38,596 nt of DNA from Parcubacteria group bacterium GW2011_GWE2_39_37 (GTDB taxonomy: Bacteria; Patescibacteriota; Patescibacteriia; Patescibacteriales; GWE2-39-37): contig LBWY01000006.1 in the NCBI GenBank assembly GCA_000995135.1, positions 1 through 38,596 of the forward strand, read 5' to 3'. Both the position numbers and the translations under genes were made by a program. Each line of letters starts with the position of its first letter. Position 1 is the first letter of the stretch. Shown piece after piece: positions 6,698 to 38,596 of this stretch. The notes under the pieces are model-generated. The model was given only the letters and a program-made list of their open reading frames with translations. It was not told where the DNA came from and did not search any database.

Positions 6698-6847
6698 ATG
6701 TTATATTTATAACAAAAATATATATTTTTGTATTATTTATATTTTTAATGTACTCTTTTCTTGGTATTTAGTAAAGTAGAATGGAGACTGGCGCAGATAA
6801 CCGTCTATCGCATTTTGTGCGGTAATGACGAATTCCAGGGAGGATTT

Positions 6848-36266: not shown

Positions 36267-37504
36267 AAAATTATGGTTTAATAAGTTTTACTAAAACTTT
36301 ATAGAATTATTATAATCATTTTAAGTAATGACAGCAATAAATAGATTGTTTACTATATGTTAAATGCTACTGAAAAAGCGATTAAGGAACTATTAACCTT
36401 ATCTATTCAAACCAGGGAGGAGTTGTTGGCGCAAAAAAGAGTTATTGCCAAAAAGCATGGCTTGAAAATTTTGGCGAACTCGGAAATTTTGAAATTCTTG
36501 TCACGGCCGGAAATCAGCGAAGACTTGCCCTTGCAAAAAATCTTGCGCAAGCGGGCAATCCGTACGCTTTCCGGTATTGCGCCGGTGGCGGTTTTGACTA
36601 AGCCCTTTGCCTGTCCCGGAAAATGCGCCTATTGTCCCACAGAAAAAGACGTGCCGCAAAGCTATTTATCCAATGAACCGGCTGTGATGCGGGCGATCCG
36701 TTGCGGTTATGACGATCGAATTAATCGTTATCGGTGGTACTTGGAGTGTTTTGCCGATCGAGTATAAATATTGGTATATAGTAAACTGTTTTAAAGCAGC
36801 GAATGATTATCGTAAAACACGTAAGGCACAAGGCGTAACACAAAAAGCTATCAGTAAAAAATTATCAATCAAAAAACTCAAGACTGTTTTACTTGAGGAG
36901 CAAAAGAAAAATGAGAAGGCGAAATATAATATTATTGGCCTGACTCTGGAAACACGACCGGATTATATTGATGAAAAAGAATTGTTGGAGATGCGAGAAT
37001 TGGGGGCGACGCGAGTGGAGTTGGGCGTACAGGCGATTGATGATGCGATTTTAAAATTGAATAAGCGTGGGCATGGAGTTGATAAAATAATCGAGGCGAC
37101 AAAATGGTTGCGCGATTTTGGATTCAAGATTACCTACCACCTAATGCCTGGGTTACCCGGGGCAACGGCGGCTAAGGACTTGAAGATGTTTAAACAGCTG
37201 TTTACGGATGAGAATTTCCAACCGGATCAGATCAAATTTTATCCTACCGTAGTGACGCGCGGCAGTCTTTTGTATAAGTGGTGGAAAGCGGGTAAATATA
37301 AACCTTATTCCGATAAAGTTTTGCAGAAATTGATTATTGATTGTAAAAAATTTATTCCGCATTATGTGCGCATCATCCGTTTGATCCGTGATATCCCTGG
37401 CGAGTCGATTGTGGCTGGCAATATCATTACTAACTTGCGCCAGGTAATGCAGCAGAAGGGTGTGGAGTGCAATTGTATCCGTTGTCGCGAGGTGAAAGAA
37501 AAAT

Positions 37505-37538
37505 CAATTACCAATTATCAATTAAGAATTACGAATTA
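37505..37538. repeat. CAATTA-rich repeat inserted in elp3
   Basis: Variants of CAATTACCAATTATCAATTA and GAATTACGAATTA encode ITNYQLRITNY in the linker between the radical-SAM and acetyltransferase parts. Interspersed repeats of this form are common in CPR and other genomes. Confidence 0.6.
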
Positions 37539-37630
37539 TAAGGCGAATGGTGGCAAGGAATATTTTATTGAGGTATGTAGTATGGATGAGAAAGTTTTGT
37601 ATGGTTTTTGTCGGTTGAGATTGCCATCAT

Positions 37631-37661
37631 CGCATAACGCACAACGCATAACGCACAACGC
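37631..37661. repeat. Two tandem GCATAACGCACAAC units inserted in elp3
   Basis: Two exact 14-base units (37632-37645, 37646-37659) encode HNAQRITHNA between the RLRLP strand and the LIRELHVYG strand of the acetyltransferase domain. Confidence 0.7.
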
Positions 37662-37920
37662 TTTAAATGATGCTGCTTTGATTCGGGAATTGCATGTTTA
37701 TGGCGTGTTGGTGGCAGTGGGGAAAGATAAGAAAATTCAGCATGCTGGTTTTGGCAAAATGCTTATGGCTGAGGCGGAAAAGATTGCTAAAGAAAATGAT
37801 TTTGAAAAGATGGCAGTTATTTCCGGAGTGGGTGTGCGGGGGTATTATAAAAAACTGGGATATAAACTCAAAGACACCTATATGGTGAAAAAGTTATAGT
37901 CAAAAGAATTAAGTTTTTTG

Positions 37921-38538: not shown

Positions 38539-38596
38539 TTGAGTGAAAAACCAACGGAAATATTTGACAGGATCCTTGCAGAAGATGGTCCCGAGA
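38539..38596 (+). CDS. Start of a gene cut by the right edge
   Basis: Open to the end of the window. The TTG at 38539 is preceded by AAAGGAGG with eight bases between, an ideal ribosome site, and gives MSEKPTEIFDRILAEDGPE. An in-frame ATG at 38476 would start 21 codons earlier (MSPFGKFNSAESII), but it lies so close to the promoter that the transcript would begin about there. The product cannot be named from 19-40 residues. Confidence 0.5.
   Translation, partial: MSEKPTEIFDRILAEDGPE

Follow-up and report, generated by a model that had tools for sequence, protein, structure and literature searches.

The Elp3 family described by the profile TIGR01211 is that of the tRNA uridine(34) 5-carboxymethylaminomethyl modification radical SAM/GNAT enzymes. 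A different kind of described system, relevant to genes that look broken in draft genomes, is the local assembly error: in the passages of Chen et al. 2020 (PMC7111523) dealing with them, metagenome genomes are reported to contain such errors, recognised as places without read support; IDBA-UD assemblies are suspected to be the most prone to them, and 13 were counted in one CPR genome of 1.13 Mb. We compared with both the elp3 gene of Parcubacteria group bacterium GW2011_GWE2_39_37, found in the window, i.e. the whole stretch of 38,596 nt that was analysed. The gene is laid out as follows:

36357 to 36767, + strand: first elp3 frame, ORF1, 136 residues (profile and domain searches)
36709 to 37899, + strand: second elp3 frame, ORF2, 396 residues, ATG at 36709 (profile and domain searches)
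36713 to 36715, + strand: junction, at which 62 nt known from relatives are missing (spacing, and comparison with the related genomes G002 and G012)

ORF1 contains the N-terminal domain and the radical-SAM CxxxCxxC motif, here CPGKCAYC, as far as the residues CGYD, and then runs through unrelated out-of-frame residues until its stop; in the profile search it matched TIGR01211 positions 3-116 (E 9e-25). The residues IELIVIGGTW and everything downstream are read in ORF2, i.e. in another frame. ORF2 comprises the remainder of the radical-SAM domain, the radical-SAM C-terminal domain and the GNAT acetyltransferase domain; it matched TIGR01211 positions 137-522 of 522 (E 2.3e-133, 445.4 bits against a cut-off of 350), as well as PF16199 (Radical_SAM_C, 75.2 bits) and PF00583 (GNAT acetyltransferase, 24 bits), each above its cut-off. 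Judged by sequence, the matches in both frames are more than chance, and they bear out the preliminary description, which had placed elp3 at 36357-37899 in two frames, with CGYD in one and IELIVIGGTW in the other. Compared with TIGR01211 Elp3, the two ORFs together span nearly the whole profile and share its cysteine motif, radical-SAM C-terminal domain and GNAT domain; they differ in that no single continuous reading frame crosses the profile as assembled, and in that about 20 profile positions (117-136) are gone. The ORFs overlap by 59 nt, and one base at the join can be assigned to neither side.

The size of the gap was obtained from the distance between the first Cys of CxxxCxxC and the GG of GGTW. 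Of 46 distinct segments from relatives, 45 gave 61 residues (183 nt) in a motif search; in the 46th (L060) one letter of the search motif is changed and the spacing is identical by eye. Since the same distance is 121 nt in the window, the gap amounts to 62 nt, that is 21 codons minus one base, which puts the two parts in different frames. Comparison of ORFs gave the same deficit, 62 nt, against G002 and likewise against G012. The loss had earlier been put at 25-30 codons (75-90 nt), which is too large. No gap of the same kind was found in the 46 segments measured, and in every one of them the frame runs unbroken across the junction place. An AlphaFold2 model of the Elp3 of an intact relative, built from three sequences (mean pLDDT 59.7, and about 54-63 around the missing part), suggests with modest confidence that the missing part would correspond to helix 122-135 and to the loop preceding strand 143-150, a strand which in the model leads into the GGTW motif. 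The earlier statement that the radical-SAM domain has lost a helix may thus be kept at that modest level of confidence, with the loop to be added to it. Loss of a helix at that place would be expected to harm Elp3 function.

Outside the gap the gene is well preserved. At the level of at least 95% conservation among 23 full-length relatives there were 173 columns, with 8 inside the gap and 165 outside; the 23 are the distinct relatives from 75 loci, the others being duplicates, partial sequences, the window itself or sequences failing the motif filter. The elp3 of the window departs from the relatives at 1 of the 165 columns, and in a leave-one-out test on the 23 relatives themselves 0 to 46 conserved columns differed per relative. 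The conserved columns downstream of the gap are retained, in agreement with the claim that all later motifs are intact. As nothing else has decayed in elp3, a true deletion would need to be recent. A second elp3 was not found in the draft genome (970 kb in 49 contigs, with an estimated completeness of 82.57% and contamination of 1.11%); the preliminary description had noted that Elp3 is usually kept as a single copy. The elp3 of one relative, G064 (L070, on G064:C88), is also frame-broken, at a different place; its break adjoins a repeat-like stretch which lies in frame within an elp3 of the same genus (L010).

Another feature of this elp3 is the presence of two types of dispersed heptad repeats:

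37503 to 37542, + strand: A+T-rich heptad repeat, read in frame within the elp3 loop that follows CIRCRE
37628 to 37661, + strand: second heptad repeat, of the CGCATAACGCACAA type, in frame, in another elp3 loop
L093, L078, L097, L101 and L089: heptad-repeat loci outside the window, same genome

The A+T-rich repeat was found at 17 places of the genome (some overlapping) with up to 3 mismatches, and the CGCATAACGCACAA type at 10 places with up to 2 mismatches; the reversed-pattern control gave 0 in both cases. When all copies were inspected, internal in-frame copies of either repeat were seen in elp3, mnmA, an mtaB, miaB, trmD and a TIGR01177-like methyltransferase gene, all of them known or likely RNA-modifying genes; the remaining copies are found between two ORFs or at the end of one. 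Among relatives, internal copies were present in 6 of 29 loci, and two of the six are by eye likely to be tRNA-modifying (MiaA-like, and of the TIGR01177-like methyltransferase type). Since only these 2 of 6 fit, the association of heptads with RNA modification is not a general one.

A frame screen was carried out in which ORFs of G002 (600 kb, 42,781 of these 600,000 bases being N), G012 (374 kb) and G040 (400 kb) were compared, in both directions, with 420 kb of the genome under study. That sample is about 43% of the genome, window included, and is non-random: the window was included because the finding was made there, and the contigs of miaB, rpoB and mnmA were chosen from pointers given by an earlier search. 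With the genome under study as subject, a collinear second frame without Ns was flagged for 5 of 124 G002 ORFs, 2 of 78 G012 ORFs and 1 of 77 G040 ORFs, i.e. in 8 of 279 comparisons, corresponding to six distinct genes (elp3 and miaB being counted twice). When the subject was one of the other three genomes, the nine comparisons flagged 0 of 746. The pooled difference (8/279 versus 0/746) gave a Fisher p of 2.8e-5, to be read with the reservation that the comparisons are not independent and that elp3 and miaB enter twice; the mirror test (5/124 versus 0/124) gave p 0.06. The breaks in elp3, in a CAP-domain gene and in miaB were already known before the screen. Without them the values become 3/274 versus 0/746 (p 0.019) and 3/122 versus 0/124 (p 0.12), which is weaker, with three genes only. 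Two of the six genes are in the window:

36357 to 37899, + strand: elp3, 62 nt short
302 to 1455, - strand: CAP-domain gene, read as 709-1455 plus 302-664, join near 745, deficit of about 43 nt relative to G002

The other four, all out of frame, are murC (65 nt short, its P-loop region gone), a gene for an FAD oxidase-like protein (61 nt short), an aminotransferase gene (49 nt short, plus an unaligned stretch) and miaB, which is 74 nt short against G040 and 110 nt against G012, whose version is longer. A P-type ATPase gene, named by eye, was a seventh candidate: it contains 27 Ns, yet comparison with G002 still leaves it about 50 nt too short. For the CAP-domain gene, a slip of one base in a run of Ts had been considered, but the deficit of about 43 nt ruled this out. 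Elsewhere in this contig, the end of the window at 38596 directly precedes a run of 15 Ns; the contig continues to 40564, with a 414-residue ORF taken by eye for glyA.

An in-frame loss was revealed by a gap scan in rpoB, a gene which, with its open frame over 1109 codons, had served as an intact control and was dropped from that role once the loss was seen:

L149 (G000:C30), join near 6745, - strand: loss in rpoB (gap scan against G040)

The protein is 14 residues (42 nt) short, in frame, and on either side of the gap 12 of 12 flanking residues are identical to those of G040; G040 was used for this comparison, the sampled stretches of G002 and G012 containing no rpoB. The gene was matched on a single contig of the genome. 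Among the five alignments to solved polymerases shown, that to the cyanobacterial RNA polymerase 8gzg_C runs across the place and has the residues that the protein lacks; the other four are split there. Requiring 5 or more identities among the 12 flanking residues of each side, this gap scan gave two gaps in the genome under study, that of rpoB and a 24-residue one in L135 with poor flanks. Its controls were not empty (a single gap in G012, two in G040), and the G012 gap and one of the G040 gaps were found against proteins of the genome under study and resemble inserts there. This screen is therefore weaker evidence than the frame screen. Both rpoB and murC are generally essential, so that the losses seem to include some that no cell would readily survive.

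The gap in elp3 is thus, in our opinion, most probably a local assembly error. This reading is favoured because similar short losses, of about 42-74 nt, affect seven conserved genes within a single draft, with rpoB among them; they recur across unrelated conserved genes of this assembly, and the frame screen was empty in the three related assemblies. The scenario would be that 62 nt were dropped when two sequence pieces were put together with no Ns between them, and that a complete elp3 came to be read in two frames as a result; the step responsible would most likely be the linking of contig ends across a short part that had not been sequenced. The resemblance to the errors treated in the relevant passages of Chen et al. 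2020 (PMC7111523) is that those too are short, come several to a genome and corrupt protein-coding sequences, a CPR genome being among those affected; the difference is that the criterion used there is missing read support, whereas the present case is built on comparison with relatives alone. Against an assembly error, it can be said that the join carries no Ns and that the estimated losses vary in length; they thus bear no common k-mer signature, and a loss of constant length matching a k-mer size was ruled out. Collapse of a repeat, a common type of error, appears not to be the cause, because in 7 relatives, whose sequence stands in for the missing stretch, no string beyond 4-7 nt is shared near the two gap ends. 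Repeat-mediated collapse or slippage at the site was accordingly discarded: neither these relatives nor the join region of the window showed a long direct repeat. The preliminary description had called the loss 'recent, or an artefact': recent fits the absence of erosion, and artefact is the better-supported half, given six more conserved genes with short losses. For the same reason, the change in wobble-uridine modification that it had derived from the loss is not supported.

The distribution of the wobble-uridine enzymes in the order bears on whether elp3 could be lost. Elp3 was matched at E 1e-30 in 98 of 111 genomes and unmatched in 13, which makes a natural loss possible and counts against an assembly error. 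For MnmG a single match was obtained among 109 genomes, a fragment at a contig edge, and a profile search found MnmE above cut-off in none of the 109. Weaker MnmE matches were obtained in 101 of the 109; those listed cover only about positions 146-411, and the ORFs holding them, often with two matches each, are mostly about 480 residues long, so these are probably the GTPase Der. MnmA was matched in 97 of 109 genomes and is whole in the genome under study. The order thus seems to be without MnmE and MnmG, and as neither was found in full, Elp3 is apparently its main route to the C5 modification of U34. The loss of Elp3 looks possible in the order. A literature term search found, among the papers covered, none combining 'Elp3' and 'Candidate Phyla Radiation'.

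Short deletions do happen in nature, and the foremost rival to an assembly error is that a real and recent 62-nt deletion inactivated elp3 in this strain, leaving it without cm5U-type wobble uridine modification. It would have removed the only elp3 found in the genome, and the Elp3-less state seems to be tolerated: the 13 genomes without a match include G070, a one-contig genome, and the four members of genus g34 that were seen, and 12 of the 13 have an MnmA match (two being fragments under the cut-off). G064 moreover provides a second relative with a frame-broken elp3, elsewhere in the gene. As direct repeats that could have flanked a true deletion, only shared strings of 4-7 nt were seen in the 7 relatives. 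Against it, there is no other decay within elp3, and the other short losses of the same assembly, two of them in genes thought indispensable, call for a common cause. We hold such a deletion to be unlikely, though it is the least so of the alternatives. Were it real, the only recognised C5 route would be removed, which would matter somewhat.

The common cause could itself be biological, if all seven losses were real and some process in this Patescibacteria lineage excised about 42-74 nt from conserved genes, rpoB, murC, miaB and elp3 included, the cell surviving through restoration at the RNA or protein level or through dependence on a host. The sole recognised C5-uridine-34 enzyme would then be among the losses; we regard this as very improbable. 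Just as little probability is given to the idea that Elp3 is made in two pieces from the two ORFs, or as one chain by ribosomal frameshifting in the 59-nt overlap, and works without the helix. The ATG of ORF2 does lie inside ORF1 and conserved residues are kept in both parts, but the frame is continuous across the place in each segment measured in relatives, and the missing stretch holds, besides the predicted helix, 8 of the columns conserved in at least 95% of the 23 relatives. Strain mixing, finally, is a source of wrong consensus, and an assembly mixed from strains might have chosen a minor allele bearing the deletion. The genome is indeed a 49-contig draft with some estimated contamination (1.11%); however, the same mixing would need to apply to rpoB and murC as well, and this explanation seems to us the least probable of all.

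To conclude, if the gap is a local assembly error, as we think most probable, the cell would own an ordinary Elp3, predicted to make a cm5U-type modification at tRNA wobble position 34. Read as biology, the assembled sequence would instead describe a bacterium deprived of its only recognised wobble-uridine C5 enzyme. Several conserved genes of this draft are probably broken on paper only, so that claims of gene loss drawn from it need a check against the reads.
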